The notes under the pieces: generated by a model
Told to the model about the DNA's origin: nothing
Database searches by the model: none
What the model saw: only the letters and a program-made list of their open reading frames with translations
Made by a program: the position numbers and the translations under genes
Part shown: positions 34,101 through 62,299 of the stretch, piece by piece
Numbering within the stretch: position 1 is the stretch's first letter
Layout of the letters: each line of letters opens with the position of its first letter
Assembly (NCBI GenBank): GCA_964017185.1
Contig: OZ024873.1
Coordinates: forward strand, 46,362,760-46,426,759
DNA length: 64,000 bases
Direction: 5' to 3'
DNA from: Rugalucina vietnamica
Lineage: Eukaryota; Mollusca; Bivalvia; Lucinida; Lucinidae

Positions 34101-37100
34101 ACACGATCCTTTGGAAACCTTTTTTTAGCATTTCAACATTGTCTGTTCACAATGCAGAACAAAATTACCTTTTGATCGATTTGCATATATAAAATCCTTT
34201 TAAAACTACATAAAATCAATTTATATAAAGGATTACTAATTTTTATGTTTTTGAAAAAGACAGAATGCAAAACAGGTTGCTTCCTAATGATTTTGCAAGG
34301 ACAGTATAAATTTTTCTCCTGATGTGTATGTAAAATATTTTTCAGGTTTCTGAAGTGACCACCACCAAGACACCCGTGATAAAGGATGAAACCATCAAAG
34401 AGTTGAAAAGGCTGTTAGATGAAGAGCGTGCCAAAAGTAGACAGCTCGAGTTAGAATTGGAAGAAAGTCGCAAGCAACAACTGTTTGGAATTGATCGATT
34501 CAAAGGAAATCCAATCGACTTCTGTTTTTATACGGGCCTGCCAGATTATATGACATTCTTGGCATTTTGTGATTTCCTCCAACCAGAACGACACCGTGTT
34601 TCTTCAATATATTACCAGACTAGACCTATCCATGATTCATACACCACAATGAGAGGTAGAGAACCAGTGTTGAGTGTTCAAAATCAAGTATTCCTTGTGC
34701 TGTGTAGGTTAAGACAGGGTTACAGAGAACTAGACCTTGCGCATCGCTTTGGTGTTTCCCAATCAACAGTGAGTGACATCTTCTGCAAGTGGATTAAACA
34801 TATGGAACATGTACTTTCTCAGTTACCCTTGTGGCCACCTAAGTCACTTATTCAATCAAGGATGCCACAGTCATTCAAGGACCTAGGGTTTGACCAGACA
34901 CGGTGCATTGTGGACTGTACTGAGGTATTCCTCCAACAGCCATCATCCAATCTAGTGCTACAATCTGTGCTTTTCAGCTCATATAAGAACCATCATACAG
35001 CCAAGGGCTTGGTTGCCATTGCTCCACATGGACCAATAACATTTGTGTCAGACTTGTATGTCGGATCAGCTAGTGATATTGAAATTACTCTATTCTATTC
35101 TATTCTAATTCTCATCTACCCTGTTCTGCTCCATTGTATTGTATTCTATTCTTTTCTGTCGTAAAGTTAGCTGCATGCGCTGTGCACATTTTGTGCTCTA
35201 AGGTGTCTTTTCGTCAAAGACATTGAATCCTGCAAGATAGCATCTAGCACCGATTCCAGGGATCTTTTGACTTTGCGGTTTAGCCAGCATCGACGTCACC
35301 ATCCCAACAAAAGCATTAGTATCTTCGTTGTTTGAGTATGAATTGAGCCTTCACGTGAGAAAACCAACACTTCAGGTTTCCAACCAGGTCCGACACACAC
35401 CAGCCTGTACAGTCAAAGAAGCATGCAAGAGAAATTATTTTTTATGTCTTTTGACATTATGAATAACGTTGTTCTACTAAAATTCATACTAAAAATCAAC
35501 CTGATGCTCAACTTAAAGTTGGTATATGTTTGATACTCAGCACAAACAATTTAAAAGGAGCGATGTATCCGCATTTATTTTTCCAGAGTCAAAAGAAGTC
35601 GAAATCTAACCAGTCAAAACGTGTAAGTTCTGTTATGACGGGTTGCTTGTTTGTTGTTTTCTTGTGTTCAAAGTCATTGCAACATACACCATGTCAAAAA
35701 TATGTACACAAAATCATATTCAGTACACATATACATAATGCTAACCATTAGAAATTTAATTCTTGAAATGGGTCTTTTACAGACTATCTTTGGAATTTTT
35801 ACCTCTAAAAAAAAGTTAAGTAAAGATTTCATTAACTGCCACCCATACACACTTTTTAGCTCACCTGAACCCAAGGCTCACAAGGTGAACTTATAGGATT
35901 ACCATGCTCCGGCATCCGTCCGTCCACAATTTCAAAGATTTTCTCATCTGAAACCGCTTGGCCAATCAAAACCAAACTTCATGTGGAACATCCTTAGGAA
36001 TGGGGTACAAAATATTGTATAATAGTCCAAGTCACATTACCAAGATCAACGCCATGGCTATAAATAGCAAAAATCCTTTAAAAATCTTCTTCTTCAGAAC
36101 CAGAAAGCATATGATTTTGAAACTTGGCATGAAGCATCAAACAATGGAGCTCTACAAAGTTTGTATAAATCATGACCCTGGGATGACCTTGACCTATTTA
36201 AAGGCAAAGTCAACTTAGATCACCCATGCATTTGAATGAAAAAAAATAGGTAAAATTAATAGCAAAAAACTTACTATAAAGCAAATGAGCAAATGAACAA
36301 AAGGTTTATGTTTATGAAAATATTTCGGCCCAGACGGCTGTCTGCCTCTGCCCTAGTTTTATATACATGTATATTCCCATTCTAGTCAAATTAGTTTATT
36401 AATATATATCTCCGGTCTCAGGTGAGCGTTTACATAACCATAAGTCTTCTGGTTTGCATTTATATACATATGTCTGATTTAGAGCAATGTAGTATGTATA
36501 TCATAGCCAAAGTCATTATGCATAATATGTAACGTTTGTATGTCCAGCTTTTTTTACATATTCCATATTTACTTTGTCTATTGTTACATGTACTTCAAAA
36601 TTAGCTGAGTTAGTCATGGGCATTTATATCCTGTGTTCTACATCTTGTTATCTCGGTAGTTATGCCATGTCACAGTTTCAATTTAATCATTACTTCCTAT
36701 ATAATTTCCATGTCATACATAATCTGGAAACAGTTCATGTAACCACTGCATAGTCACATTACAGCTGATGATTTAATCTCCACACTCATTTAGACCTAAA
36801 ATAAAAAATTCCTGTTCACTGCCAGTATTCATATTTTAATTCCATTTCAAACCTAATGAAAATTTTGGAAAAAAATGTAACATTACTACCTTGAACCATT
36901 TTTATATTCAAAACAACCCATATTCTACATGGCACCCAATAGAATCAACATCAGCTGTAAAGTCCATGACTAGCATTTCATGACTAAAAAACAGACAGTA
37001 AATTATTCAATAAGCATTGTCTTCTGTTATGTTTTTATACCAACTATCCGATTCTTTGTTCAACTAAGTCACCAGCTGACATGGTGAAAATTTAGTATGC

Positions 37101-40100
37101 CAACGAACTGGCTACATACATCGTCTTTCCCACCTAATGTAAACATTGGCTGTATTAAAGAGAATCATCATTTCCTACATCTTTATGACTCAATAAATGA
37201 CAAAACTGATTAAACGCTAACATATCAAGATGATTTTCTTCAACCACCCATACATGCGTATAAGCTTTACTTGTTAGCTTACCTGAGCCGAAGGCTCATG
37301 GTTAGCTTATAGCATGGTACTCGAACCGGCATGCATCCTACGTTAACACTTACAAAGATCTCTGAAACTGCTTGTAAAGCCATATCTCTAAGAAGGGGGA
37401 GCAATGTGTATATAAAAATACAGATCATATGAACATATAGCCACCATGTCCATAAATGATAAAAACCCTTCAAAAAAACTCTGAAACCAGTAGACTGATT
37501 TCAAAAAAAAAACTTGGCCTTAAGCAATAATGACTCGATACTACAATATTATGTATATAAATCGAAACCCTGTAATGACCATGTCCTACTTTACGACAAG
37601 GTGATGAAATAACATTTAAATTTCAGAACAACAAATGATGCCACTTTTTTATTTTTGATCGAGAATGAAAGTCGGATGCGTGGCAAATAAAACAGATAAG
37701 GGAGATACCTGACTAATTATTTTCAGCCGTATAGAAAAGTAAATGCAGCATATTTTCATAATTGAGTCAATTGATATGACACTTTGTGTCATATCTTTTC
37801 TTGTTACAAACTAGTTTTAAGCACTTTTAAGCCCACTACAACGTACAAGCTAATAGAAAGAGGCCAAGAAAGTGACATCAATGTACTGTAAATTCAGAAA
37901 TTTTCACGAGACTATTATTTCATAAATTTTCTTTTTTTTTTTTTTTTTTTTTAATTATTAGCTGAAATTAAGTTCTTGTGAACATTTTGGCACTTACAGT
38001 AATATTATGCGAGATGCCAAAGTCTGCATGCCTTTTTAAAGCTCCAATTGAGGGCTGGAAGTGGGTTGGGGTGGAACCTTAAAATTACAAGTGTTGAACA
38101 TCAGATAAATCGGAAGAATTTCTCAAATGATAGCAAATGATGGGATAATATTTGTCAGCTGATTATTCACAAAAATATTATGAGTACTTAAAATTTTATC
38201 AATTTATTATATCTTACCACCTTTTGTCAACAGATTTGTTGACAGAAGGTTTTGTTACAGCCCAACTAACTGAGCAGATAAAAAGATGACCCACAACAAT
38301 GTTATTTGAGCCGCGACGCGTGAAAACTGGTCTTTGGGGTTTTTCCCACCATGTCCGACACAAAACGGCCTGTTCAGTCACAGAAGAAGGCTAGAGGCTT
38401 GAAATTTTGGATATAGGTAGAGGAGGAATTGTACTATCCATGTAGCGAAAATGAAGGCGCTGATCAGCTGTGCAGTTACTGCACAGCTGATCTGCGCCTT
38501 TGTTTTCGCATGTAGGCAAAATTCGGTTTTCTCATGACGCAGCTCATGATTCACACAAGTATTTAGGTTGTCTGACCAAGATCTAGACCCTTTGCCAAGT
38601 CCACAGAATTATTAAACAAAGTTTACGAAAGAGTTACGAAAAATGGGTTTGACAAGTGTTGGCTTTTGTAAGAAGCCAAGATGTCGATAGTTTATACCAG
38701 TAATCCAGTATCTTACATTCATCATGCCAAGGCAGTACCTGTATTCCTTCTTAAAAGATGCCGGTGACGAACTCTAGTTATTGGTTTACTATCTAAGGGC
38801 TCATCAGTAAAGCGGGGAAAGGGGCCATCTTGTATGGAGACGAATCTTTTGTTTGTGTTTCTTCGTTTCATCCATGGGCTTGCTTTAATAGGTATTATGC
38901 TTTTTTTTTTCAAAGGGAAGGAATATTGGGCTCAAAATAATGAGGTGTGATGTGGTCAAGCCCTAAATTTTGTGAAAAATAGATTATTACGGTAGGCTGA
39001 ATAATTACTGCAGTTTAAGATTTTTAAGTATGTCAAAGATTAAAGGAATTTTAAGAAGCATTATTTGAACCACAAACCTACTTTCCCATGGAGTGTTTGT
39101 TCAGAGTATGTGCCGCAACACAAGAAAACTTGTCTTCAGGATTTCCGACCAAGGCTGACACAAACCGCCCTGTACAGTCAGAGAAGAACACTGGAAGCCT
39201 AGAATTTTGAATTTATGAAGACGAGGGATTGTACTATACATGTTGCGAAAATAAAGATGCTGATCAGCTGTGCTGATCTTCGCCTTTGTTTTCGCATATG
39301 CAAAAAGCCAGTTTTCTCATGGTACGGCTTGTATATAAACTACTTATAAGCCCTACTTTAAAAGTATAAGTTTGTTATTAGTCGCCCAGAATTTGTACAA
39401 CCCCCATTTTCGAGTGTCAAGTGTTTATTCAGGTCAGAAAAAAGGGACAATGAATATTTGCTTGTCTTTAAATTGTAATCATTGATTCTGACTGGTCCCT
39501 ACATGAAGTTTCCATACTGGGCTGGAAGCAAAGATGCATATTTTCATATTTTGCCATTTCTTGCCAGTTTGCCTTCACATAAAACCACTTTAATATTATG
39601 CACCAGTCATTTGTAACCACTGCGCCCCCACCTAATCTAATAGTCCTATGTGGAAGGGCGGGGATTATGACTTTTCAGTTTCAGTGCTCTGCTATGAGCC
39701 CCACCCCAGGGGGCAAACTGGAGGTCAAAACTTTGCACCTGTCCCGCCTTTTGTAATAGAAAAATCTCCCTGGGGTAAGGATCCTAACATCAAAACCCTG
39801 TCATTTTCCCTGCACTGCAGGGACACTTGAAAAGTAATTGCACAGCCGCACATTAGCTTGGCTATCCCCCACCCTTCCCCGTAGGTGTGTGTGTGGGGGG
39901 GGGGGGGGGGGCAGTGGTTACAAATGACTTGTGCATTATTAGTAGAGTGTCTGATTTTTATCCAAGCAGACCCAAGGATAGTAAGCAAATCGCACCAAAA
40001 ATTTTTTTTTCTTGCAGATTTGGTCATACAGATTTATTTGAGCCGCATCATGAGAAACCCGGCTTTTTGCATATGCGCAGATTAGCTGTGCAGTAACTGC

Positions 40101-43100
40101 AAAGCTGATCAGCATCTTTGTTTTTGCTACACAGATAATAAGTACAGTTCCTCTTCTACATATATCCGAAATATCAAGCATCTAAAGTGACTGTACAGGG
40201 CCGTTTGTGTCAGACTTGTTACAGTGACATGTACATGTATATGTGTACAGGTAACCCAGCGGAGCACTGGAGAGGTCCAGGTCCTAAATATATTACAGTG
40301 ACATGTATATATTACAGGTAACCCACCGGAGCACTGGAGAGGTCCAGGTCCTAAATATATTACAGTGACATGTATATGTAATAGTTAGAGTATGGAGGTG
40401 AGGTCAATACGAAAATTATAGACCCGGGCACGTGAACTTAAAGCCGACCGAGCGCAGCGAGGGAGGCTTTAAGTTCACGTGCCCGGGTCTATAATTTTCG
40501 TATTGACCGATACCGACATACTCTAACTGACTTATATACTGGCTCCTTTGTTTCGCTATAACATATGCTACACAGCGAGCCGATTGACCAAACCTTGCGC
40601 AGTATGCTTAGACCAATTATATTCTGTTAAAGCGTGTTTTCTCGCGACATGACTATTGGCCAAAAATCCCACGGACTAACTGTGAACAATATTTTCTTTC
40701 CTCGTGCTGCCATGTCCAAAGACAACTTTCACAGTATCTTCCCCTTAAAACGTCGTCGAGGTTATTTATTGATCAAGATTTAATGCAAATAATTCAATAC
40801 CATTTAAGTATGATTTTTGTATATCTATATATTGTGCGTAAACTGATTTGAAAGTGTAGATTACTTCTACTTGGATCTGTCATAGGCGAATCCCCATGCT
40901 GAAATGACAGAGGACCATTTACTGAATGCCCGGCTGTTTATGGGGGAAACAGCTGGTCAAAACTAACTTTGTGAAGTTTCTTCCTACTTCCGTGGTTTCT
41001 CATTAACCTCACACTAACCCTAACCTTCTACACTACCAATGAAACCATGGGACGAGGAATATTTTCACACAGAAATGTACGTGCAACGGTACGTTTGAAA
41101 TACCGGTTTGGGAAATTATGAATTATTGAAATAATACATATTTGCCTCATCTCAAAGAATTTCGGATACTCAGTAGGAAAACAATTTGTATTTACCTTTA
41201 GCATGATTTGCTGGGAAAACATACAATCAGCATAAGCATGAACACAGCGAAAGCATTTTTGCGGTGCAGCTGAACCGTTACATAAACTTACTGTTGTGTC
41301 TCATGCGCGGATCCAGAGAGGGGGGGGGGACCGGGGGTCCGGACCCCCCCTGGAATTTGAAAATTTTATCTTAAAAGGGTAATTTCGGGATTTTTGGGGG
41401 GTTGGACCCCTCCTCGTCTGTGACCAAAAATGGACCCCCTCTCATGAAAATTTCTGGATCCGCGCATGTGTCTAATATATAACAGATAACAGCGTACATC
41501 TACGGGAGGTTTATAAGTTTCCCGCCAGATATTATCAACCGGTTGATAATAAAAAGCGCGAATCTTATCAACCTCCGGCCTCCTAAATTTCCTTTGTTTA
41601 GCAGGTCAATACGTTTGTTATAGACCTGTTCGAAACAAAGGAGCCAGTATATAAATTACAGGTAACCCACCGGAGCACTGTAGAGGTTCAGGTCCTAAAT
41701 ATATTACAGTGACATGTATATATTACAGGTAACCCACCGGAGCACTGGAGAGGTCCAGGTCCTAAATATGTTACAGTGACATGTATATGTGTACAGGTAA
41801 CCCACCGGAGCACTGGAGAGGTCCAGGTCCTAAATATGTTACAGTGACATGTATATATTACAGGTAACCCATCGGAGCACTGGAGAGGTCCAGGTCCTAA
41901 ATATGTTACAGTGACATGTATATATTACAGGTAACCCACCGGAGCACTGGAGAGGTTCAGGTCCTAAATATATTACAGTGACATGTATATATTACAGGTA
42001 ACCCACCGGAGCACTGGAGAGGTCCAGGTCCTAAATATATTACAGTGACATGTATATATTACAGGTAACCCACCGGAGCACTGGAGAGGTCCAGGTCCTA
42101 AATATATTACAGTGACATGTATATATTACAGGTAACCCACCGGAGCACTGGAGAGGTCCAGGTCCTAAATATATTACAGTGACATGTATATATTACAGGT
42201 AACCCACCGGAGCACTGGAGAGGTCCAGGTCCTAAATATATTACAGTGACATGTATATATTACAGGTAACCCACCGGAGCACTGGAGAGGTCCAGGTCCT
42301 AAATATGTTACAGTGACATGTATATATTACAGGTAACCCACCGGAGCACTGGAGAGGTCCAGGTCCTAAATATATTACAGTGACATGTATATGTTACAGG
42401 TAACCCACCGGAGCACTGGAGAGGTCCAGGTCCTAAATATATTACAGTGACATGTATATGTTACAGGTAACCCACCGGAGCACTGGAGAGGTCCAGGTCC
42501 TAAAGATGAACAAAGTTACAGACAACCGACCCAACGTCTTACGGGAACTACAGCTCATGAATAGGCTGTCTCACAAAAACATTCTCAGGTGAGTTATGGC
42601 AAAAAATGCTAGCTTACTGATTAGGTATTCTAAGGAAGCATCTGACAGTACCATCCTGACATGACTGAAAAACTGTTGACAGGCACATTAAGCCCTAACA
42701 TACTAAATCTAGCGACTGACTTGTTTTCATCTAGCCTTAGTAATGACAGAATGCTCAGAAGTGAATAGAAGCATGCATTGTGTAGCCAATCGCTAAGTGG
42801 AAACAGGGTCGTGGGTTTGTATCTTGGTTTCTGCAGTTCTGAATTAGACTGCTAACTGAAAGTCATGTCTCCATATGACCATATATGTTGAGTGGGATTT
42901 TAAACATAAAATGTGAAAACAGGCCAGTGAGCTTCCCCAATTCGGTCAGTATGTTGTGTACCAGTCTATGACCCCAACTAGGATGATTTGTAAAGAGGAT
43001 AAGATTAGCCCACAATAGGTGGCCAGGGCTATTTAGAAACATCAATGGAAGATTTGTTGACATGAATCAGGAGTTTATCAAGTTGTTGAAGTCTACTTGA

Positions 43101-46100
43101 TGTCCTTAACCAAGACAAAATACCTCTGTGTCCAGGTTATGTGTGTGGGCAGTCCTGATAAATGAGCAGCAATTCGAGAAAACCGGTCTTTTGGGTTTCC
43201 GACGAGGTCTGACACAAACCAACCTGTACAGTCACATAAGAAGGCTAGAAGGTTGAAGTTTTGGATTTGAGACGAAGAGGGATTGTACTCTGTGGAGCGA
43301 AAACAGAGGCGCTGATCAGCAACTGCACAGCTGATCTGCGGCTGTTTTCGCATAGGCAAAAGTCTGGTTTTCTCATGATGCGACTCATATAATAGGGCAG
43401 ACAGTAGTTGGCAAATATTTTGTAAGGAAATATTTTTGTGAGAGAGAAAAAAAGCAAACTATCACATTGGGCAAGCTGACATCCATCATGTGTTTTTGCT
43501 ATGCGGTTTCATTATGTACCAATCAATAATATTTCAGTCAGGTCTGGATGGAGCCACCGATTCCTGCAATTTACCAGTAAAGTATGATGAAGAGGCAATG
43601 TGTCCTGCTCAAGGACACAACCTGCCCCATGCCAGTGGGAATCAAACCCTTGAAGTCTGACCTACTCTCACTGTTAGGCCACCGCCCACCTGGCTAGTGT
43701 TTAAACTGTTGGCAATTCTATGACAGTTTTGATGGTAAAAACTTTGGTTCTAAAAATTGATGACATGATGTTCTAACAATTGATGACATGATGAAAAACT
43801 ACGGAAAGTGACAGTTTTGGTCAGGTTGTGGGCTGATCACTTTTGTGTTGTTGTTTTTGTACAGTATCTGTCACCTGTCATCAACACTCATTGATGAAAA
43901 TTTGGTCAGCTGATAAAAACAATTAGTAATCATGCATTCTGATGATAATTGAGATACCATTCTTGATAAAATTGTTAAACAGCTGGCATTGTTGAAAGTT
44001 AAATGCTGGTTTCAAAGAGAGCACATGGAATTTCTGATAAGTTTATTGAAGCTTGTAATATAATAAGATTACAGTATATTGTATTGAAAACTGGAATCTT
44101 GCTATCATGCTAGCATACAAATGACATTTCAATGTCACCAGATCACCAGAACTGCAATGGCAAAAACGTAGGAGTTGCAGCCCTTTATGCATTCTTCCTT
44201 AGCCAAACAATGACTTTTTCCACTTTCCAAATTTTTCATTCATGATTTTGTGAATTAAGCTCTGAACCCGATTTTACACTTAATTTTAACAAGTTTGCTT
44301 GCGAAGATAATTGATTTGTTAACAAAATTATTCAGTATAAAAATTACTGAGCTGTGGATTTTATGAATTATGATATGAGCCGCGTCATTAGAAAACTGGA
44401 TTTTTGCCTATGCGAAAGCAAAGGCACAGATCAGCTGTGCAATAACTGCACAGCTGATCAGCGCCTTTGTTTTCGCTACATGGATAGTACTATTCCTCTT
44501 CTTCCTAAATCTGAAATTTAAAGCCTCTAGCTATTTTCTGTAGCTGCACAGGCCGGTTTGTGTCAGACCTGGTTGCAGACCCCAAAGGTCGGTTTTCTCG
44601 CATCACGGCTCATGTTACCTGATAGTTATGATGTCGTCACAAGAAAAACCTGTCACCATGTTTTCGGACCTTAAAATTGATCAGGACAAATTCAAAGTTT
44701 AGCCTTCTCTTGTCAATTAATGTTACAGACTTAGACTGCCAATCTCCTACACATACAAACATGAGTAAGGGCATCATCTTTGATATTGTCCACATTTTGC
44801 ATTAAGCAGATCTTCGATATGCGGCTCGATATGCAGAGCTTTGATATGCGGCTCAAAAAATTATATTCTTTATGGCATGGTTGGTAGTGTGGTTACATTT
44901 AATGCATGATGGTGTTTGTACTAGTTTTTTAAAAGTTAAAAGATGAAATAAATTAAGTCAGTGCCCCAGGTTATACATGTACTAATGAAATTGATATACT
45001 TTTGCATTGAAGACAAATAACGCTGTACGTGTCCAGGTCCCCTGTGTCCATCCAAGTTATGTATGTGAACAATCTGTGATCCATGGGTTGAAAGGGACAT
45101 TGGATTTGAGCTTACCGCCAAGTCCGATGGGAAAAAGAATTACCATTTATCCCAGTCACCAGGACACTTCAGTACGAACTGTTTGAGAGTAGAAATCAGA
45201 CTGTGCAAAGCTGCAGATACTACCGCGTCGTTAGAAAACCGGATTTTTGCTTATGGGAAAACCAAGGCGCAGATCAGCTAATCAGTAATTGAACAGCTAA
45301 TCAGCACCTTTGTTTTCGCTACACGGATAGTACATTCCCTTTTCATAAAGCTTCTGGCCTATTTCTGAGACTGTACAGGCTGGTTTGTCGGAAATCCAAA
45401 GACCAGTTTTCTTGTTTGTGTCACAGCTTATTTGATTTCAGCTTGATACTCTCTGTAAGTAATGCACCAGTCATTTTTAACCACTGCCCCCCACCCCACC
45501 CCACCCCACCTATGGGGAATGGTGGAGGATAGACAGGCTAAAGTGCAGGGCAATTTTCAAGTGTCCCCGCAGTGCAGGGGAAATGACGGCGTTTTGACAT
45601 TAGGATCCTTACCCCAGGGAGATTTTCTATTGCGAAGGGCGGGGCAAAGAGCAAAGTTTTGACCTCCAGTTTGCCCCCTGGGGGTGGGGCTCATAGCAGG
45701 GCACTGAAAGTGAAAAGTCATAATCCCCGCTCTTCCCCCGTAGGTGAGGGAGCAGTGTTTACAAATGACTGGTGCATAATGTATGATTTTACTGATATGC
45801 TGGATTTATTTTCAGGTTTATGGGTGTATGTGTTCATGAAGGACAACTCCATGCTCTCACAGAGGTAAGGAAAAACATGAGCCACTACTTGAGAAAACCG
45901 GGCTTCTAGGTTTCGGACCAGGTCTGGCACAAACAGGCCTTTACAGTCACAGAAGAGAGCTAGAAATTTTGGATTTAAGAAGAAGAGGGATTGTACTATC
46001 AGAGTAGCGAAAATAATGCACCAGTCATTTGTATCCCCGGCCCCCTAGGGTCGCGGATAGCGGGGATTCAGCGGGGCTAAAGTGCCAGGTTTTAACCTCT

Positions 46101-49100
46101 GATGAGTCCCGGCAGTGCTTGGGATGTGCCGGGTTTTTAATTTCCAGCCAATACACGGTCACATTATTTCAAATTAGATACATGCATTAAGTGTATTTTT
46201 AACATTTCATTACTTTTATGGTCCTTATTTAATTTGCAGATGTGCCTGTACTTTTACACGCATAAATCAAAGCCCCTCTCACATATTTCAGTTTCATCAG
46301 AACAACTCTCAGCTGTTGTTCCACATTATGGTAAGCCTCCGGGGAGCCGGGGCTTTTAGCAGGGATTTTAGCACAAAGCTGGCCCCCCAGTGCCGGGCTT
46401 TTAGTTGGGCTTTAAAAATTGAAAAATTAAAAGCCCCACTATTCCCCGGCCCTGGGGGAGTCCGATGTAAAAAATGACTGTTGCATAAAAACACTGAAAA
46501 CGCAGAAGAAATAGTGCTGCACTATATTTTTAAGAGTTAAGCTAGTTTACCACATGTTTTGCATGGCAGTGGTAAAGAGCATAAGCAAACCATGTATTAA
46601 CAGCGTGTGTGCACGTGAATCTCCTGATTAATACAATTTTCTTCATTAAGTCACCTTTTAATATCGTGTGGCACTGGAATTTATGTAAAGTAAGATTGTT
46701 AGTCATGAAAAGATGTGAATAGACTAATGGTCAAACATCACTTTAGTAGGTTAAGCCTGCCCAGGAAAGCTGGCAAGGAAGTGATTTTGTATGAATATGA
46801 CCACTGTTGTTTCCAGAACAAATGAAACTACATGTAATATAAGATCGGGATTCTTTTTTTTATTGATCATTAAATGTGTCATCTCATAATTTTGTCATAA
46901 TCACCTGAGGTTTGCATGTTCAGAAATCTGCTGCTATCCGTCACAAGAGATCATGTTTTCTGTGTTTCTGGGCAAGGTAAGATATGAGCTGAACTTGCTT
47001 AGGAACAGCGACAGGCAGGGCCACACAATAAAGTATTAAGCAGTTAAAGTCAAAGATGCTGGTCAGACTGCACATATGTGCAACTGATCTATGCCTTTGC
47101 TGTCTGCATAAGCTTCAAGTAAATTTTCATATGACAAGCTGAAATAAGCCGTGTTATGAGAAAGTGTTATGAGAAAACCAACAATGTGGTTTCTGAACAG
47201 GTTTGACACAAACCAAGCTGTACAAGCAGAGGCTGGAAATTTCGGATTTAGAAAGTAGAGGAGTTGTAATATCCCTGTAGCGTCTTTGCGTCTTTGTTTT
47301 TGCATATACAGATTGTTGGTTTTCCCATGCTGCGGCTCAAATAATAATTACAGTTCTCAGGTTGGCTATGTCAAGTTAACGCCTGTATTGACAGGTATGC
47401 TAGAACTGTCACGAAACTTAATGTCTGTGATTTGTCTTTGTCTGTAGCAAGGTTGCCAGAGACAGGAGGCAATGAAAATGTTGGCAAAGAATGTAATTAT
47501 GAGAACATTGTACATAATGTAGGTTATATTAGTACTTCTAGGGAATTATAAAACACACACGCCCACATACACACATACGCACACACATGAGAGAGATTTC
47601 TATTCTTTTCGGCATCTCTGGGCTAATCATTCAAAGTCCCTTTTCTATCACCAGACTTACTCAAATCAGGATTCTGTGGGCATCTGTACTTCCCTTTTGT
47701 GCATATTAAATTATATATTCAAGAGGGTAGGTTGTTAGTTACTGGTGTAATACTGTGCAAGAACTACTGGTAACCTGCCTTTAGGAGGTAATCTATCTTC
47801 TGATACTGAGTTGATCAATTTCTGATCATCACCTCAGGAGGTAATGTAATATAATGTTGAATGTCTGGTTCTCAGTGTCCCGATTCTTTCCATGGCTCAC
47901 CCCCATTTGTCCCATTGAAGACAAGTTGGTGTTCAGGATAAAGTTGATTGTGTTTTTACAGTAATAGTGTTAACCCCGGTGTAGGTCCAGTCTTTGAGAA
48001 GATGGACCTCAGTGGAGCCACATTGCCGACTGTGCCAGGATTATGGTGCCTCCACAGTGCCTCAATGTTACCCAGTGATTTCCAGTTGTGCCAGGATTAT
48101 TTCCCAATGGTGCCTTGATGTTACCCAGTGATTGCTGGTTGTGCCAGGATTATGTCCCAATGGTGCCTCGATGTTACCCAGTGATTGCTGGTTGTGCCAG
48201 GATTATGTCCCAATGGTACCTCGATGTTACCCAGTGATTGCTGGTTGTGCCAGGATTATGTCCCAATGGTACCTCGATGTTACCCAGTGATTGCTGGTTA
48301 TAGCCCCGCTTTGAAAAAGTGGGGCTATACTGGATTCACCCTGTCCTTCCGTCATTCCGTCATTCCGTCTTTCCGTGATTCCGTGAATATTTGGTTTCAA
48401 GTGGGGCTATACTGGATTCACCCTGTCCTTCCGTCATTCCGTCTTTCCGTCTTTCCGTGATTCCGTGAATATTTGGTTTCCGCTCAGTATCTTGAGAAAG
48501 AAATGACAGAATCTGACCAAATTTTGTATGCACAGCAACATTGACAAGATCTAGGTTGGGATTGTTGCCCGTCATTTTTCGCAAAATTTTGACGGAGTTA
48601 CAGCCCTTGATTGACGTCAGAATTTCGTTTCCGCTCAATATCTTAAGAACAGATTGACAGAATCTGACCATATTTTGTATACACATCATCATTGACAAGA
48701 TCTAGCTTGGGATTGTTGCCTGTAATTTTTCTCAAAATTTTGACAGAGTTACGGCCCTTGATTGACGTCAGAATTTCATTTCCGCTCAATATCTTGAGAA
48801 CCAATAGACAGAATTTGACAAAATTTTGTATGCTCATCTACATTGACAAGATCTAGCTTGGGATTGTTGCCTGTAATTTTTCGCAAAATTTTGACGTAGT
48901 TACGGCCCTTGATCGACGTCAGAATTTCGTTTCCGCTCAATATCTTGAGAACGAATGGACAGAATCTGACCAAATTTTGTATGCTTATCAACATTGACAA
49001 GATCTAGCTTGGGATTGTTGCCCGTCATTTTTCGCAAAATTTTGACGGAGTTACGGCCCTTGATTGGCGTCAAAATTTTGTTTCCGCTCAATATCTTGAG

Positions 49101-52100: not shown

Positions 52101-53131
52101 CCTAGTGATTGCTGGTTGCCCCAGGGTTATGTCCTAATGGTGCCTCAATGTTACCTAGTGATTGCCGGTTGTGCCAGGATTATGTCCCAATGGTGCCTTG
52201 ATGTTACCCAGTGATTGCTGGTTGTGCCAGGATTATGTCCCAATGGTGCCTTAATGTTACCCAGTGATTGCCAGTTGTGCCAGGGTAATGGTGCTTCAAT
52301 ATTACCCAGTGATTACCGGTTGCTCCAGAATGTTACCCACTATTAGAGATGATGTCTTTGCTAGATTATATATATTTTGAAATATGCCTAATCCTTTAAT
52401 TACTTTGAACTTATGTCTATATGGAAGATCTGCAAAACTAATAATATGAACATTACAAAATCACCTCACTGCAATTGGTATGCCAAAAAATGCACTAAAC
52501 CCCAAAATACTTTTATGGTTGTCAAAAATAGCTTGGCTGTAAACAGGGCTGGGCTGTAAGTTAGTAACAAAGACACAAAACTTTGGAATGAGTAGAGAAC
52601 TAAATATGCAAGTTGCATGTCTGCAGTGGGTGAAGAATTCTTTGGCATATATAAATGGATATTAATTGGGTGATTGAAATAGCTTGCATGATTGCTTTTG
52701 TTGCAGCACAGACTTGGCAGACACAAAGTTACTTTGTAATTGAGCCTCGACGCGAGAAAACCGGTCTTCGGGGTTTCCGACCAGGTCCGACACAAACCGG
52801 CCTGTACAAGCTCAGAAAAGAGCTAGAAGCTTGAAATTTCGGATTTAAGTAGAAGAGGAATTGTACTATCCGAGTAGCGAAAACAAAGGCGCTGATCAGC
52901 TTCGCGGTTACCGCGAAGCTGATCTGCGCCTTTGTTTTCGCATAGGCAATAATCCCGTTTTCTCACGATGCGGCTCAATTAATAGTGATGTGGGTGTTAC
53001 GCTGATCTCTTTCTTCAGACAAATGCCAAAAATCTAGACTGAGTTTGAGTACAAAGAAAAACAAATAAGGTGGTTTAACAGTTTTGTGGTCATTTAGGAT
53101 TGTTCATAGATTATGTTAGGAAGGCAAAATG

Positions 53132-56100: not shown

Positions 56101-59100
56101 TTGAGACTTTGATATAATTGTTTCAAGTTTCTTAAGAGGAGACACTTAATATGTTTATTTTTATGCAGCTGCATGCATGTGATGTGCGGTATGAAATAAT
56201 TATTTGAGCCGCCGCATGGGAAAAAAAAACAATCTGCATAGGCGAAAACAAATACGCAGATCAGCTGTGCTGAAGTAACTGCACAGCTGATCAGCGCCTT
56301 TGTTTTCGCTACACGAATAGTACAAGCCCTCTTCTACTTGAATCCAAAATTTAAAGCTTCTAGTCTGATTCTGTGACAGTACACGGAGGTTTGTGTCAAA
56401 CCTGTTCAGGAACCAAATTGTTGGTTTTCTCATGCACAGGCTCAGTTAAGAGGCTAATGCAACTTGTTGATAATTTCCATCTCTATTTTCAGTACATCAG
56501 CGGCGGTGACCTTGAGCAGCTTCTTGCGGACGAAAACATTGAACTGCCGTGGACCATCAGGGTAAAGATAGCCTCGGACATAGCGGTAGGAATGGCGTAC
56601 CTACACTCCAGGGGCTTCATGCACAGAGACCTCACATCAAAGGTATGGTATAAAGTTGGCTGCATTCACCAAATGGAATATATATGACACAATTAATGTT
56701 AAAGAAAGTATCTGAGCCTTCACATGAGGAAACAAGCAATTTGGGTTTCTAACCAGGTCCGATACAAACTGGCCTGTACAGTCACAGAAGCAGGCTAGAA
56801 GCTTGAAATTTTGGATTTAGAAAGGAGAGAGATTGTACTATCCCTGTAGCAAAAACAAAGGCGCTGATCAGCTGTGCAGTTACTGCACAGCTAATCTGTG
56901 TCTTTGTTTTTGCATATGCACATTGTTTTCTTGTACGGCACCTCATCTATTATGGCAAGACGGTCATTGTATACCACCTGTATCTGGGCATACAGTACAG
57001 GCATACCTATACAGTTGCTATTGTCTTGGCATAGCAGTCAGCCTCTCTTTTGTATCTTGTTTTCAGGACTCCATAATGTGAGCCTCAACAAGAGAAAACT
57101 GGTCTTCGGGTTTCCGACCAGGTCCAACAGAAACTGTTCTGTGCCGTCTATGAAGATAGCTAGAAGCTTTAAATTTTGGATTTAAGAAGAAGAGGGATTG
57201 TACTATCCTGTAGTGAAAACATAGGCGCTGATCAGCTGTGCATTTACTGCACAGCTGATATTTCTGCTTTGTTTCCTTATTGGCAAAAATCCATTATCCT
57301 CATGATGCGGCTCATGTAATGAATGTAATGGGACAGGGATATAATGTTAGGTCAGAGAAAAAAATCATATTTCCCTATTTGATCTGTTTTCCATAATCAA
57401 TATATAGTGTTTGTCTTGAGAAAAGTCTATATTATCAAGTTATTATCTGACAAAATGTGTTTACATTAGAGTACAGGATCCATTCATTTCTTTCCGATGA
57501 CCTACTTTCTGGTCCTTTTTATTTCCAGCAATGTGAAGGAATTTTTTTTTGCCGAAAAAAAAAATACACATTCAGTCAGCAATTGGGAGAATGATACACT
57601 CACCCAATGCTTTCAAACACTTCCCTGTTCCCTGTTTGGAAACTTTTGTTTTCAATAGATATGAACATAAGTCACAAGGAAGTATGAATCTGTACATTTG
57701 GTATTGACATTTCTTGGTCAGTAATAGGTTGTATTTGTACAGTGGCAGTTCTCAAACATGTTTTGGCCTAGTCAATCTAGATGCTATCACTGATCATACA
57801 TTGTTATCTACACATCAAGGCCCCGTGATTGTCTAAAAAGAATATGTAGAGATGGTAGAGATGGTCATCTGGTTATGAACTTTATTTCCCAAGTCAATTT
57901 GGTGTCATCATCATCATGTTGTGCCCTGTGGTGGACCTAAAAAATGTCACTAAACATTGCCTATTTTAAATGTAGAGAAATTGGGCATGGTAACATTCTT
58001 GCATTCTTTGCACTTAGTGCAATCATTTTGTCGAAAATTTCCCTCTTCCACTAATAATTCAAAAAAGCAATTTATCGAAATAAATAATGGCATTTAATAG
58101 CTATTAAGCTATTAGTGTTTTTAAAGTTTAACAGAATTAAATGCATGAAGAGCTTGTTTAAAGGGTATGCCTCTTGTATGATAATGTCTTCAGATGTGGC
58201 TGCAACAATCCTTATTGTTCACATTTATCAGGGAATGCAACATACCATGCGTAGGAAGAGAGTATTTTAAAAGTGATAAAAAACAGAGTAATAGATACAT
58301 AAAAAGGAAACCCAGACAGTGGCTTTCACCTTTTTTGAGAGAAATTGAGATGTAAATGATGTAACAACTGATCAGAAATGGCTGCAATGCTTATTATTAA
58401 CCATAATAGTCTTGTCCTTGAAACATATTGGGAAGGTAAAAAACTCTTAGGCATCTTAAGTCCTCTTGGCTTTCTTAAGATTTGGCCTTAATTTGAAAGT
58501 TTCTCGAAGTAAATTTGATTTCTTTTGTCTAAATCAAATTTTCAAGGCAAGTCTGAGATTTCTGTTCAAGTAAATTACTGTCCCAAGAGTGATTTTCCTG
58601 TTATTTTAGTGTCAGTTCTCTTTATTGGAAGTGTTGATGAAGCTTCTTTTAATTCGATTTTAAAGAAATTGGTTTCAAGGACATGATATGAGCCGCATCA
58701 TGAGAAAACCAGTTATTTGCCAGTGCAAAAACAAAGGTTGCTGATCAGCTGTGCAAATTAGCTGTGCAGTAACTGCACCTTTGTTTTTGCTTCACAGATA
58801 TTAGAATCCCTCTTTTTAAATCCAAAATTTTAAGCTTCTAGCCTTCTTCTGTAGGTCACGGGCCAGTTTGTCTATGTCAGAAACCCCAAAGGCAACTTTT
58901 GTTTCGTATTGCAAGGTTTGCAGTTATGGGTGGAGGGCAGGGTTTAACGGACTTTGCAAACCTTAGTGAGGTTTGAACTTAAACATTTAATTCCATTGAG
59001 GCTTGTTTTGAAATGGTGAGTGGCCACTTTTGCAGAAATAGCTGCTCTCCTGGTTTACTATATATTCTCTTTCCCACCTGTGTTTGTGTTTAACGTGAAG

Positions 59101-62100: not shown

Positions 62101-62299
62101 TCTTTGTTTGAATGTTTTGCCTCCATTTCTAGGTAAAATTCATGACTGTAAGAACTTTATCTAAGCTGGTGTGAGTTGAAAACACCTTCTAATATTTTAT
62201 TGTATCTCATTGACAGAATGTGTTGATCCGACAAGAGAACAATACCTATACTGCCGTGGTGGGGGACTTTGGACTTTCCGCCAAGATACCAGATCCACT
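21863..62299 (+). CDS. TESK: TESK homologue, 5' part (5 exons; continues past window)
   Basis: Dual-specificity protein kinase of the TESK branch of the LIMK/TESK family. Known members phosphorylate cofilin at Ser3 and so control actin turnover. Exons: 21863-22159, 42467-42588, 45816-45864, 56493-56642, 62217-62299, with all phases consistent (233 codons plus 2 nt). Visible elements: glycine loop GEGFFAEV at residues 90-97, catalytic Lys112 in [24 protein letters not shown] (the C helix), [16 protein letters not shown] at the hinge, HRDLTSKN from residue 200 (TESK has DLTSKN where LIMK has DLNSHN), and DFG at 223-225. The first ~75 residues are polar and unrecognised, as in human TESK1. The activation-loop remainder, APE motif and C-terminal tail lie beyond the window. 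The first ATG of the open frame is used; in-frame Met at codons 4 and 8 are alternatives. Introns of 20.3, 3.2, 10.6 and 5.6 kb are mostly repeats. Confidence 0.95.
22160..24600. other. TESK intron 1, left part
   Basis: AT-rich. 22430-22660 holds a decayed copy of the GC-rich TIR family D core (GCTAAAAGCCCGACACGGCA). A G tract lies at 22922-22934. Nothing else was recognised. Confidence 0.5.
24601..24840 (+). mobile_element. Family A MITE, copy 9
   Basis: Both ends present; stem decayed (AGCTGCGCAG-TTT-CAGCAAAGCT). Confidence 0.8.
24841..26167. other. TESK intron 1 DNA with a SINE fragment
   Basis: 25043-25100 matches the SINE body on the minus strand (GTGTCCCAGTCAACAACTGT, GTCATGTCGGGATGT). 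The rest is unassigned. Confidence 0.5.
26168..26367 (+). mobile_element. Family A MITE, copy 10
   Basis: Well-kept ends (TTTGAGCGGCGACGCAAGAA, TCATGACGCGGCTCATTT); left hairpin arm partly lost. Confidence 0.8.
26368..27284. other. AT-rich stretch before the THAP gene
   Basis: No feature recognised. The left end of the THAP element may lie in it, but no terminal repeat could be matched to the right side. Confidence 0.4.
27285..27499 (+). promoter_or_regulatory. Candidate promoter of the THAP transposase
   Basis: The 215 bp before the ATG hold a CACGTG E-box (27293-27298), AGATGGCG at 27361, a palindromic TGACGTCA (27370-27377) and AAGATGGCGG at 27421. The last and 27361 match the YY1 core, and TGACGTCA is the CREB/ATF site. 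The stretch is GC-richer than its surroundings, as expected for a promoter carried by the element itself. Confidence 0.4.
27500..27943 (+). CDS. THAP transposase exon 1
   Basis: 148 codons with a clear ATG and donor GTATAT. It holds the complete THAP finger ([21 protein letters not shown]) and a Pro/Lys-rich linker with [16 protein letters not shown]. Codon use and composition are more balanced than in the surrounding intron. Confidence 0.85.
27500..35164 (+). CDS. THAP-domain DDE transposase gene, 3'-truncated (PIF/Harbinger or ISL2EU-like)
   Basis: Three exons, 27500-27943, 33005-33166 and 34346-35164, all phase 0, predict 474 residues. Domains: N-terminal THAP zinc finger (C6-x4-C11, C62-x2-H65, LPTIIP at 74-79 in place of AVPTIF), a polar linker, a coiled coil (about 216-246), an HTH around 335-351 ([15 protein letters not shown]), then the start of a DDE_4-type nuclease. 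The nuclease has DCTE with the first acid at 392, [19 protein letters not shown], and YVGSASD with the second acid near 446. The third acid and the rest are missing. From about 35090 the reading frame runs into TTCTA-type microsatellite, adding about 24 spurious residues. It lies in sense inside TESK intron 1. The THAP-plus-DDE_4 arrangement is known from animal DNA transposons; a domesticated gene is possible but the missing active-site acid makes nuclease activity unlikely. Its first intron is 5.1 kb and filled with later insertions. Confidence 0.82.
28110..28396 (-). mobile_element. SINE fragments, including a TAGTGGTTAAG head
   Basis: 28110-28170 carries the SINE body motif (GTCCCGACATGACTAAAATT). 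28230-28396, read on the minus strand, has TGTGTAGTGGTTAAGACACT (A box), GGGTTCGATCCCACC (B box) and a different body, so it is another SINE family. Confidence 0.65.
28443..28741. mobile_element. GC-rich TIR element, family D
   Basis: Ends TAATGCACCAGTCATTTGTA and its complement TACAAATGACTGGTGCA. The core is full of CCCCGGC and GCCGGGG, with AAAGCCC repeats forming further inverted pairs. Relatives at 39597, 45460 and 46013. Confidence 0.8.
29137..32257. mobile_element. TIR element with internal 3 x 1021-bp expansion
   Basis: Left end GTCACGCCTGTACGAAAA and right end TTTTTCGTACGGGTGAC are inverted relatives. Further inward both sides share AATCTTG-type motifs. A 26-bp terminal segment with GTATTGTAGTATTTTTCGTA is itself duplicated at the right end. 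No known protein. Confidence 0.55.
29144..32206 (+). repeat. Exact tandem triplication, unit 1021 bp
   Basis: Unit starts at 29144, 30165 and 31186, ending at 32206, for a total of exactly 3063 bp. I saw no difference between copies, including the 120-codon open frame repeated in each. AT-rich with many TTGCAATATT and GCAAGAATCTTG motifs. Lies in the first intron of the THAP transposase. Confidence 0.93.
32745..32980 (-). mobile_element. Family A MITE, copy 11
   Basis: Hairpin decayed (AGCTTCACAGTAACTGCAAT). Ends 25 bp before the acceptor of THAP exon 2. Confidence 0.75.
33005..33166 (+). CDS. THAP transposase exon 2
   Basis: 54 codons between TTCTAG and GTAAGT, encoding [20 protein letters not shown] and then [16 protein letters not shown]. 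No domain is recognised. It resembles the spacer between THAP and HTH. The phase fits both neighbours. Confidence 0.75.
33719..34071. mobile_element. TIR element with ACCGGAAACATTC ends (family F)
   Basis: Left AAGGCCAAAAAAAAAGGAAT followed by GTTTCCGGTAAC; right GTTACCGGAAACATTCTTAT followed by a T tract and GGCCT. Non-coding, in the second intron of the THAP gene. Confidence 0.75.
34346..35164 (+). CDS. THAP transposase exon 3 (HTH and partial DDE)
   Basis: Acceptor ATTTTTCAG. It encodes [20 protein letters not shown] (coiled coil), [20 protein letters not shown] (HTH), [13 protein letters not shown] and [20 protein letters not shown]. Homology ends at GSASDIEIT; the following residues come from a TTCTA-rich simple repeat. 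The copy was therefore cut, or replaced by microsatellite, before the last catalytic acid. Confidence 0.85.
   Translation, partial: VSEVTTTKTPVIKDETIKELKRLLDEERAKSRQLELELEESRKQQLFGIDRFKGNPIDFCFYTGLPDYMTFLAFCDFLQPERHRVSSIYYQTRPIHDSYTTMRGREPVLSVQNQVFLVLCRLRQGYRELDLAHRFGVSQSTVSDIFCKWIKHMEHVLSQLPLWPPKSLIQSRMPQSFKDLGFDQTRCIVDCTEVFLQQPSSNLVLQSVLFSSYKNHHTAKGLVAIAPHGPITFVSDLYVGSASDIEITLFYSILILIYPVLLHCIVFYSFLS
35085..35162 (+). repeat. Decayed (TTCTA)n microsatellite
   Basis: TCTATTCTATTCTATTCTAA continues irregularly to TTGTATTCTATTCTTTTCTG. It replaces the end of the transposase coding region. Confidence 0.75.
35342..35430 (+). mobile_element. Family A MITE, copy 12 (left part)
   Basis: ATTGAGCCTTCACGTGAGAA to CAGTCAAAGAAGCATGC only. 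Confidence 0.65.
35855..36455 (+). mobile_element. CTCACCTG-ended element, copy 1
   Basis: Left end TTTTTAGCTCACCTGAACCC, hairpin with GGCTCACAAGGTGAACTTATA, then ATCCGTCCGTCCAC. Interior has ACCGCTTGGCCAATCAAAAC and AACTTGGCATGAAGCATCA. Right end CTCAGGTGAGCG complements the left. Confidence 0.75.
36456..37272. other. Unassigned TESK intron DNA
   Basis: AT-rich; nothing recognised. Confidence 0.5.
37273..37600 (+). mobile_element. CTCACCTG-type element, partial
   Basis: TTAGCTTACCTGAGCCGAAG then GGCTCATGGTTAGCTTATAG and scattered body matches (ACTCTGAAACCAGTAGACTG). The right terminus was not found. Confidence 0.55.
37601..38304. other. Unassigned TESK intron DNA
   Basis: Contains a T tract at about 37931-37951. 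No feature recognised. Confidence 0.5.
38305..38548 (+). mobile_element. Family A MITE, copy 13
   Basis: Full length; stem AGCTGTGCAG-TTA-CTGCACAGCT. Confidence 0.88.
38549..39117. other. Unassigned TESK intron DNA
   Basis: AT-rich; nothing recognised. Confidence 0.5.
39118..39332 (+). mobile_element. Family A MITE, copy 14
   Basis: Inner stem deleted, leaving GATCAGCTGTGCTGATC as a short palindrome. Confidence 0.8.
39597..39941. mobile_element. Family D TIR element, second core type
   Basis: Ends TTATGCACCAGTCATTTGTA and TACAAATGACTTGTGCATTA. The next bases are ACCACTGC / GCAGTGGT instead of CCCCGGC. A G tract lies at 39896-39911. The core matches 45460-45780 in inverted orientation. Confidence 0.75.
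40036..40219 (-). mobile_element. Family A MITE, copy 15 (truncated at right)
   Basis: Starts TTTGAGCCGCATCATGAGAA and runs to GTCAGACTTGT, where the 67-bp array begins. The array therefore abuts or cut into this copy. Confidence 0.75.
40383..40528. mobile_element. 146-bp palindromic MITE
   Basis: Arms of ~60 bp from AGTTAGAGTATG to CATACTCTAACT, with GGTCAATACGAAAATTATAG / CTATAATTTTCGTATTGACC and GCACGTGAACTTAAAGCC / GGCTTTAAGTTCACGTGC. The loop is CGACCGAGCGCAGCGAGG. Confidence 0.85.
40532..41654. mobile_element. 1.1-kb TIR element splitting the 67-bp array
   Basis: Perfect 24-bp terminal inverted repeats, TTATATACTGGCTCCTTTGT plus TTCG, and complement. The right side also has GGTCAATACG and TATAGACC, shared with the adjacent palindrome. 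Contains GGTTTCCCGCCAGATATTAT and an inner hairpin at TATCAACCGGTTGATA. No known ORF. Confidence 0.75.
41303..41470. mobile_element. GCGGATCCAGA-ended MITE nested in the insertion
   Basis: Ends CATGCGCGGATCCAGAGA and TTTCTGGATCCGCGCATG; interior G/C tracts pair as GGGGGTCC / GGACCCCC. Similar termini occur, to my recollection, in many marine invertebrates. Confidence 0.7.
42467..42588 (+). CDS. TESK: TESK exon 2 (catalytic Lys, C helix)
   Basis: 122 nt encoding [17 protein letters not shown] and then [20 protein letters not shown], with donor GTGAGT. Its acceptor ATGTTACAG and first 38 nt are the last unit of a 67-bp tandem array that begins at 40214. The copies diverge exactly inside the Lys112 codon. 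The exon starts GTAACC, so the junction reads CAG|GTAA and resembles a donor as well as an acceptor. Confidence 0.95.
42628..42700 (+). mobile_element. SINE tail fragment
   Basis: CCTGACATGACTGAAAAACT and GTTGACAGGCACATTAAGCC match the 3' body of the tRNA-headed SINE; the head is absent. Confidence 0.55.
43162..43390 (+). mobile_element. Family A MITE, copy 16
   Basis: Left hairpin arm shortened (GCTGATCAGCAACTGCACAG). Confidence 0.8.
43505..43695 (-). mobile_element. tRNA-headed SINE, copy 4
   Basis: Diverged copy; GTGTCCTGCTCAAGGACACA body and GGGAATCAAACCC (B box complement) are readable. Confidence 0.65.
43696..44374. other. Unassigned TESK intron 2 DNA
   Basis: A short direct duplication AATTGATGACATGATG lies at about 43757 and 43779. 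Otherwise nothing recognised. Confidence 0.5.
44375..44613 (-). mobile_element. Family A MITE, copy 17
   Basis: Full length; stem AGCTGTGCAA-TAA-CTGCACAGCT. Confidence 0.88.
45219..45433 (-). mobile_element. Family A MITE, copy 18
   Basis: Decayed ends; hairpin AGCTAATCAG-TAATTGAACAGCT partly mismatched. Confidence 0.7.
45460..45780. mobile_element. Family D TIR element, second core type
   Basis: Ends TAATGCACCAGTCATTTTTA and complement. Core is CCCCACC-rich with CCCCGCAGTGCAGGGGAAAT. Its right end lies 35 bp before TESK exon 3, so it supplies much of the upstream splicing environment. Confidence 0.8.
45816..45864 (+). CDS. TESK: TESK exon 3 (49-nt microexon)
   Basis: It encodes [16 protein letters not shown] after one base that completes an Arg codon. 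Acceptor TTATTTTCAG, donor GTAAGG. A TIR element ends 35 bp before it and a palindromic MITE begins 12 bp after it. Confidence 0.95.
45877..46011 (+). mobile_element. Family A MITE, copy 19 (left part)
   Basis: Starts 12 bp after TESK exon 3 and stops at GTAGCGAAAA, where a family D element begins. Confidence 0.75.
46013..46487. mobile_element. Family D TIR element, first core type
   Basis: ATAATGCACCAGTCATTTGT with CCCCGGCC next; right end AAAATGACTGTTGCATAA. The interior carries an unrelated AT-rich segment near 46140-46300, so it is probably a composite. Confidence 0.7.
46488..47143. other. Unassigned TESK intron 3 DNA
   Basis: AT-rich; nothing recognised. Confidence 0.5.
47144..47341 (+). 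mobile_element. Family A MITE, copy 20 (hairpin lost)
   Basis: A 13-bp end motif is duplicated (GTGTTATGAGAAA twice); the central stem is absent between GTAGCG and TCTTTGCG. Confidence 0.75.
47342..47911. other. Intron DNA with CA-rich microsatellite
   Basis: AAACACACACGCCCACATAC and ACACACATGAGAGAG at about 47550-47593; otherwise nothing recognised. Confidence 0.5.
47912..48164 (+). repeat. Array flank, first copy
   Basis: Single-copy-like sequence from CCATTGAAGACAAGTTGGTG through GGACCTCAGTGGAGCCACAT into the first degenerate units. It reappears unchanged at 50881. Confidence 0.9.
48299..49674 (+). mobile_element. Hairpin-ended element with 151-bp satellite, inside the 53-bp array
   Basis: Left hairpin TATAGCCCCGCTTTG-AAAAAGTGGGGCTATA, then CCTTCCGTCATTCCGTC repeated, then about eight units of 151 bp (marker TTTCCGCTCAATATCTTGAG, GACAAGATCTAGCTTGGGAT). 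Right end AAGCGGGGCTATA. The minus-strand open frames repeat with the same period and match no known protein. Confidence 0.8.
50881..51133 (+). repeat. Array flank, second copy
   Basis: About 250 bp identical by eye to 47912-48164, offset 2969 bp, lying between two blocks of the 53-bp array. Confidence 0.9.
52342..52738. other. Unassigned TESK intron 3 DNA
   Basis: AT-rich; nothing recognised. Confidence 0.5.
52738..52980 (+). mobile_element. Family A MITE, copy 21 (best-preserved)
   Basis: Full-length with AATTGAGCC...GGCTCAATT ends and perfect stem AGCTTCGCGG-TTA-CCGCGAAGCT. Good consensus seed. Confidence 0.92.
53130..53290 (-). mobile_element. SINE fragment with (TGAT)n tract
   Basis: 53131-53168 is TGAT repeated about nine times; on the minus strand the adjoining body has CTTTAGTTGTTCAGTTGGAT and ACTTTAAACTGAGTGAGATC, related to the SINE tails at 17905 and 28290. 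Confidence 0.55.
53704..53926 (-). mobile_element. Family A MITE, copy 22
   Basis: Ends ATATGAGCCGCCGCATAGGA and TCATGCAGCGGCTCATAT; left hairpin arm shortened. Confidence 0.85.
53927..54436. other. Unassigned TESK intron 3 DNA
   Basis: Nothing recognised. Confidence 0.5.
54437..55199. mobile_element. 763-bp MITE with ~54-bp inverted ends (family E)
   Basis: Ends CTTAAGTCCAATTCGCATGC and GCATGCGAATTGGACTTTAG, continuing inward with TACACGCGTGTAAATATACT / AGTATATTTACACGTGTGTA. CTCCGGTGTG and GAGTAAATTTA motifs recur on both sides and inside. Non-coding. Confidence 0.85.
55200..56202. other. Unassigned TESK intron 3 DNA
   Basis: No feature recognised. Confidence 0.5.
56203..56445 (-). mobile_element. 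Family A MITE, copy 23
   Basis: Stem AGCTGTGCTGAAG-TAA-CTGCACAGCT with a 3-nt insertion. Its end lies 47 bp before TESK exon 4. Confidence 0.85.
56493..56642 (+). CDS. TESK: TESK exon 4 (HRD loop)
   Basis: 50 codons, phase 0 at both ends, acceptor TATTTTCAG, donor GTATGG. It encodes [20 protein letters not shown], then [14 protein letters not shown] and [11 protein letters not shown] is the catalytic loop and DLTSK is TESK-specific. Base composition is visibly more GC-rich than the surrounding intron. Confidence 0.96.
56711..56949 (+). mobile_element. Family A MITE, copy 24
   Basis: Stem AGCTGTGCAG-TTA-CTGCACAGCT; starts 69 bp after exon 4. Confidence 0.85.
57077..57316 (+). mobile_element. 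Family A MITE, copy 25
   Basis: Stem AGCTGTGCAT-TTA-CTGCACAGCT; right outer arm decayed. Confidence 0.85.
57317..58686. other. Unassigned TESK intron 4 DNA
   Basis: 1.4 kb of AT-rich sequence without recognised features. Confidence 0.5.
58687..58920 (-). mobile_element. Family A MITE, copy 26
   Basis: Rearranged stem with an extra GTGCAAATTAGCTGTGC; right end poorly kept. Confidence 0.7.
59174..60395 (+). mobile_element. CTCACCTG-ended element, copy 2 (long)
   Basis: Left end TTTTTAGCTCACCTGAGCTG with hairpin to CACATGTGAGCTTATAG, then GTCCGTCGACGTCCG. Three tandem-like body units carry ACCGCTTGGCCA or ACCACTCAGCCAATCAAAG and GGCTATAAATAGCAAAAA. Right end ATCTCAGGTGAGCG with GGACCATTGGTCCTCTGG. 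Confidence 0.8.
60531..60754 (+). mobile_element. Family A MITE, copy 27
   Basis: Left arm reduced to GTGCTGATCAGCTGCTGCAC. Confidence 0.8.
60811..61033 (+). mobile_element. Family A MITE, copy 28 (old)
   Basis: Strongly diverged; ends AATAAGCTGTGTCATATGAT and TCATGATAGAGCTCAATT still readable. Confidence 0.55.
61216..61454 (+). mobile_element. Family A MITE, copy 29
   Basis: Mixed stem AGCTTTGTGG-TTA-CCGCGAAGCT. Confidence 0.85.
61723..61919 (+). mobile_element. Family A MITE, copy 30
   Basis: Left arm lost (GTAGCGACAGCTTTGCAGTT). Confidence 0.8.
62217..62299 (+). CDS. TESK: TESK exon 5 (DFG)
   Basis: 83 nt, acceptor TTGACAG, donor GTAAGT. It encodes [20 protein letters not shown] and then [16 protein letters not shown] is identical in human TESK1 as I recall it. 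It ends with two bases of the next codon, and the gene continues right of the window. Confidence 0.95.

Follow-up and report, generated by a model that had tools for sequence, protein, structure and literature searches.

We found that, in a TESK-like kinase gene, the edge between intron 1 and exon 2 has been copied into a 67-bp minisatellite, in which 14 near-identical decoy edges lie upstream of the true one within the 64,000-nucleotide stretch of DNA analysed here (the window). The anatomy of this array, its copy number, its reading frame and the local identity of the competing splice sites are observed directly. From the sequence and by analogy with the mirages published for lancelets, we infer that the array is probably a largely neutral mirage, whose last acceptor would be chosen by exon definition.

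The host gene was traced using the reading frame and the splice dinucleotides (Table 1; a slash marks a splice junction throughout), with exon 1 ending in ...GTGTTTAAG/GTGAGT at 22159. Joined in frame, exons 1 to 5 encode a single kinase, and the edge at 42467 keeps the frame open through exons 3 to 5. The joined product matches the Pfam families PF07714 (E 7.6e-34) and PF00069 (E 5e-31), its five best relatives of solved structure are all LIM kinase 1 or 2, and the lysine of its VLK motif pairs in the alignment with that of VMVMK in LIM kinase 1. Furthermore, exons 4 and 5 read ...HRDLTSKNVLIR...TAVVGDFGL, and the LIMK1 equivalent of the HRDLTSKN loop is HRDLNSHN. This loop together with TAVVGDFGL forms what we take to be a signature of TESK and not of LIMK, LIMK1 having been compared and the TESK side being assumed. 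Judged by its sequence, the gene is a protein kinase nearest to the LIMK/TESK group, and TESK-like. The part of exon 2 that lies outside the repeat has no match in plasmids.

Table 1. Coordinates in the window of the kinase exons, the array and the neighbouring DNA.
Feature	Position	Strand	Remarks
Exon 1, coding part, 99 codons	21863..22159	+	phase 0 end, AAG/GTGAGT; start codon inferred from open frame
Interspersed repeat	40034..40218	+	matched at 26 further places in the window
Array, 5' block	40219..40377	+	exon-edge copies 1-2; exon-like pieces from 40251, 40318
Inserted DNA splitting the array, ~1.3 kb	40378..41654	+	outer limits accurate to within a few bases
Array, 3' block	41655..42466	+	exon-edge copies 3-14 and intron end of copy 15
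Exon-like piece starts, copies 3-8	41662, 41729, 41797, 41864, 41931, 41998	+	
Exon-like piece starts, copies 9-14	42065, 42132, 42199, 42266, 42333, 42400	+	
True exon 2, 122 nt	42467..42588	+	first 38 nt are repeat copy 15; contains catalytic lysine codon
Exon 2 donor CAG/GTGAGT	42589..42594	+	
Exon 3	45816..45864	+	edges inferred from frame
Exon 4, ends HRDLTSK	56493..56642	+	edges inferred from frame
Exon 5	62217..62299	+	edges inferred from frame; gene traced to here

A scan of the plus strand of the whole window with GTAACCCA gave 15 matches, all inside 40251-42467, corresponding to the 14 decoys and exon 2 itself. TRF called a period of 67 at 40233-40377 (2.1 copies) and at 41650-42504 (12.7 copies, 97% matches); the whole array of 15 units occupies 40219-42504, and the edge of its final unit, at 42467, is where exon 2 really starts. 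Start-to-start spacing is 67 in 12 of the 14 intervals and 68 in one, while the remaining one, of 1344, spans an insertion. Each of the 15 units consists of 29 nt derived from the 3' end of the intron (most commonly TATATTACAGTGACATGTATATATTACAG) and 38 nt derived from the start of exon 2, the latter ending in CTAAA, that is, 2 nt into the AAG codon of VLK. This is the unit that an earlier, sequence-only reading had described, intron end plus first 38 nt of exon 2, broken off inside the codon of the catalytic lysine, and the pattern scan, TRF and the alignment with LIMK1 all bear it out. The stretch given in that reading, 40214-42588, does contain the array but also takes in all of exon 2, and the single intron-end sequence it assigned to every unit, TATATTACAG, precedes 10 of the 15 edges, the other five having ATGTGTACAG (edges 1 and 5), TAAATTACAG (edge 3) or TATGTTACAG (edges 14 and 15). 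Its count of 14 decoy acceptors is right for the copied edges, but it missed the inner AGs: TTACAG/TGACATG (TTACAGTGACATG) is present in 15 copies, each 5' of the true edge, and from 40219 onwards 29 TACAG sites precede the true one.

A repeat arisen by chance is excluded by the TRF calls and the 15-copy pattern scan, the array being far beyond chance expectation. A mobile-element origin of the 67-bp unit was likewise rejected, as self-BLAST of the window matches the unit in the array only. An exact scan with the pattern of the unit gave no match in viral_contigs.

The array was described earlier as lying upstream of exon 2; the 14 copies do so, but what had been overlooked is an insert that splits them into 2 decoys on its 5' side and 12 on its 3' side. 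The first part of this insert is a palindrome (40383-40528, 86% self-complementary, with perfect arms of 44 nt), and the second part is bounded by perfect terminal inverted repeats of 24 nt (40532-40555 and 41631-41654). RNA of 40378-40532 is predicted to fold into a hairpin of -117 kcal/mol (z -21). In the search of the window with Rfam at gathering thresholds, the sole match for a structured RNA was a weak tRNA on the minus strand at 10104-10175 (score 30.5 bits, cut-off 29), far from the array. On its 5' side the array abuts an interspersed repeat, at most some 200 bp long, with copies on both strands of the window; the copy that starts at 40034 stops at about 40218, where the array starts, and 11 other aligned copies continue. 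An exact scan with the core of this repeat gave no match in genome_contigs or viral_contigs. Both the interspersed repeat and the insert differ in sequence from the 67-bp unit and were rejected as its source.

We considered whether the array could be a misassembly, collapsed or expanded, of a shorter repeat, and judge this very unlikely. Some units have private variants, one unit is 68 bp long, and the interior of the array holds inserted DNA that self-BLAST found nowhere else in the window. In favour of such an error are the presence in the window of an exact period-1021 tandem run (29144-32206), which is an error-prone kind of place, and one globin mirage that was apparently wrongly assembled in a genome draft (PMC3087553). 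The number of copies may be wrong, but it is unlikely that the array as such is spurious. The period-1021 run has three copies without mismatch, and is either a recent triplication or an assembly fault.

Next, we compared the units with one another. The true copy agrees with the consensus at all 38 exon-derived sites, and at these positions the 14 decoys differ from it in 5 of 532 cases (0.9%). For the 29 intron-derived positions, 28 of 377 differ across 13 units (the true unit included, units 1 and 3 left out); a single indel-shifted unit accounts for 23 of the 28, and without it the count falls to 5 of 348 (1.4%). Set side by side, 0.9% and 1.4% do not clearly point to constraint on the exon-derived pieces. 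The idea that the decoys are coding exons under selection was rejected on this similar divergence of exon and intron pieces, and because 67 is not divisible by 3. Four units (41998-42265) are identical to each other, which we read as a sign of recent homogenisation. Compared with the true acceptor over 98 positions, 11 of the 14 decoys show at most 4 differences, and the decoys at edges 1, 3 and 5 have 45-47 mismatches because of an indel or insertion upstream.

As had been proposed from the sequence, a decoy transcript reaches TGA at codon 17: splicing exon 1 to any of the 14 decoys leads to the same TGA, the 17th codon past the junction, while the true edge stays open. At the inner TTACAG/TGACATG, TGA is the first codon in 12 of the 12 rows scored in register (15 rows in total, those from edges 40251, 41662 and 41797 being out of register and left out). 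If decoys were often used, this stop could send the mRNA to decay, and array length would tune the level of the kinase, making the array a poison-exon rheostat. Such a role is consistent with the early stop shared by all decoys and with the closeness of 11 of them to the true acceptor. Against it stands the distance of the majority of decoys from the exon 2 donor, up to which decoy exons would measure 189, 256, 323 ... 2338 nt, compared with 122 nt for the true exon; given the usual limits on exon length, just the nearest two or three decoys would be real competitors. The exon pieces of the decoys also lack clear constraint (5/532 against 5/348 in the intron pieces, one shifted unit dropped). 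Elsewhere, VNTR length does correlate with splicing and expression (ABCA7, where the length of an intronic VNTR correlates with exon skipping, PMC5954066), but published mirages are thought to be harmless to splicing. Taken together, we regard the rheostat as improbable.

How the last acceptor could be distinguished from its neighbour is constrained by their local identity. No base differs between decoy 14 and the true acceptor in the interval -73 to +38, so whatever favours one over the other must lie beyond it; candidate sources include features such as the remaining exon 2, its strong donor CAG/GTGAGT, and distance. This fits one of the two options put forward in the sequence-only reading, namely that exon sequence further downstream favours the last acceptor, with which the published relatives agree by analogy. 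Scored with a position weight matrix for donor sites, the exon 2 donor ranks top of the five traced donors (range 6.70-12.48). The pyrimidine fraction from -20 to -4 is 0.47 at the true exon 2 acceptor, as against 0.65, 0.82 and 0.65 at exons 3, 4 and 5, and this poor tract may make the choice of the true acceptor leaky.

A branch-site-like TCCTAAA, itself exon-derived, places a putative branch A 31 nt before edges 2 and 4-15 (32 nt at edge 5, 41797). It agrees with the branch consensus TACTAAC at 5 of 7 positions, the same as the best candidates for exons 3 and 5. Edges 1 and 3 lack TCCTAAA, and their best branch match is 4 of 7, as is that of exon 4. To judge from these motifs, intron 1 may now rely on the array within it to supply a branch point.

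Exon 2 begins with GTAA, and for this reason AG/GT recurs at every copied edge: all 15 edges read AG/GTAA (CAG/GTAACC) and are donor-like too, a potential that was absent from the earlier reading. With the same matrix, the donor at the array edge scores 7.26 and the one recreated by an exon 1-decoy splice 7.10, both inside the range of the traced donors; among 3737 GT sites outside the array, 52 reach 7.26. The edges could then act as dual-specific sites, both acceptor and donor, in an array that erases itself: splicing of exon 1 to a decoy recreates AAG/GTAACC, which is re-spliceable to a later edge, so that any route could still lead to the correct mRNA. The juxtaposition of acceptor and donor at 15 of 15 edges, the donor scores and the rarity of comparable GT sites point in this direction, and dual-specific sites do work in the tandem array of human UBC (PMC10809524). 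However, all 15 edge donors have C at +5, where the five traced donors all have G, and the same donor at the true edge would allow exon 2 itself to be skipped. We consider this self-erasing behaviour improbable as well. Its elaboration as a self-correcting splice ladder, in which a wrong decoy would be removable in 67-nt steps and intron 1 would perhaps be array-dependent for its branch point, is suggested by the sequence features but remains unlikely.

The neutral mirage that we favour accounts for the array as follows. A tandem duplication spanning the junction of intron 1 and exon 2 in the kinase gene would have given rise to a minisatellite, which would then have expanded and been homogenised, and at some point would have been split by the inserted DNA. 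The 14 upstream copies would be spliced out as part of intron 1. The last copy alone is contiguous with the remaining exon 2 and has the shortest distance to the strong exon 2 donor, and through this link to the exon body and the nearest donor exon definition would select it. Two features of mirages are found here: the unit spans the intron-exon boundary (29 + 38 nt, 15 copies), and the authentic edge is the terminal copy of the array, with the frame intact. On the other side, exon definition does not clearly exclude decoys 14 and 13, whose exons would be 189 and 256 nt long, and copied AG/GT signals could, by analogy with what PMC3087553 says of mirages, yield aberrant transcripts.

Tandem arrays abound in the window, and we also estimated how often an exon edge would fall within one. 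TRF intervals apart from the kinase array cover 12.0% of the window, and for the 9 traced exon edges about 1.1 (1.08) would be expected in an array by chance, a rough estimate that ignores selection against arrays at exon edges; one was observed, that of the kinase array itself, and none elsewhere. Adding the period-1021 run raises coverage to 16.4% and the expectation to 1.47 edges. A set of 13 hand-picked intervals had given 10.8% and 0.98 edges, and the final figures are those from the other TRF intervals.

Mirages have been described in lancelets (amphioxus) in Adh3, BflGb6, BflGb9, TnC and PGBD5, the last two being further cases and the PGBD5 repeats imperfect (PMC3087553 and PMC3902484). 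Like the kinase array, they are minisatellite-type tandem duplications of an intron/exon boundary, with homogenised units and AG/GT kept in many. BflGb6 repeats the 3' end of the intron and the 5' part of exon 2, as in our case, and the 67-bp unit falls inside the 10-72 bp range of Adh3 units (PMC3087553). In contrast, the two BflGb6 haplotypes have 6 and 3 repeat units where the kinase array has 15 copies; the gene is a different one, and the kinase array is split by inserted DNA. Lancelet mirage arrays are considered to leave regular splicing undisturbed (PMC3087553, PMC3902484), although the copied AG/GT signals could serve as cryptic sites, with possible aberrant transcripts (PMC3087553); it is by analogy that we carry this behaviour over to the kinase array. 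Lancelet clusters vary in length, with somatic instability at Adh3 (PMC3087553), and by the same analogy length variation of the kinase array is a fair expectation.

Other known systems share part of this arrangement. In human CBS 844ins68, a 68-bp duplicated intron/exon junction creates two competing sites; splicing strongly prefers the distal one and removes the copy upstream (PMC2630376). That source speaks of 'donor' sites, yet what exon 8 requires at its start is an acceptor, and there is one extra copy as opposed to fourteen. Human UBC is likewise a tandem array with AG/GT at each unit boundary (PMC10809524), but there the sites separate coding monomers and have been shown to undergo splicing, whereas those of the kinase array derive from an intron end and are putative. 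Intron gain by tandem genomic duplication at AGGT (PMC3443670) also involves a duplicated segment that contains AGGT; unlike there, the AGGT of the kinase gene lies at a pre-existing intron edge and no new intron is seen.

No report of such an array in a TESK gene was found among the matches listed in our literature search, part of which named TESK1. As far as this search shows, the TESK-like array is a new case of a class already in print. It provides a long and clean example of a little-studied class, and its last two acceptors, with their shared sequence, amount to a stringent natural experiment on how a 3' splice site is chosen. If the host is not a lancelet, the class reaches beyond the group of the mirage reports found.

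Two introns of the gene hold further features. Intron 1 carries a THAP-domain frame (27470-27961) and a HTH_Tnp_4/DDE_Tnp_4 transposase fragment (34334-35161). Intron 3 contains a large 53-bp minisatellite (48031-52284), for which TRF also called periods of 106 and 159 and a 151-bp array between its blocks.
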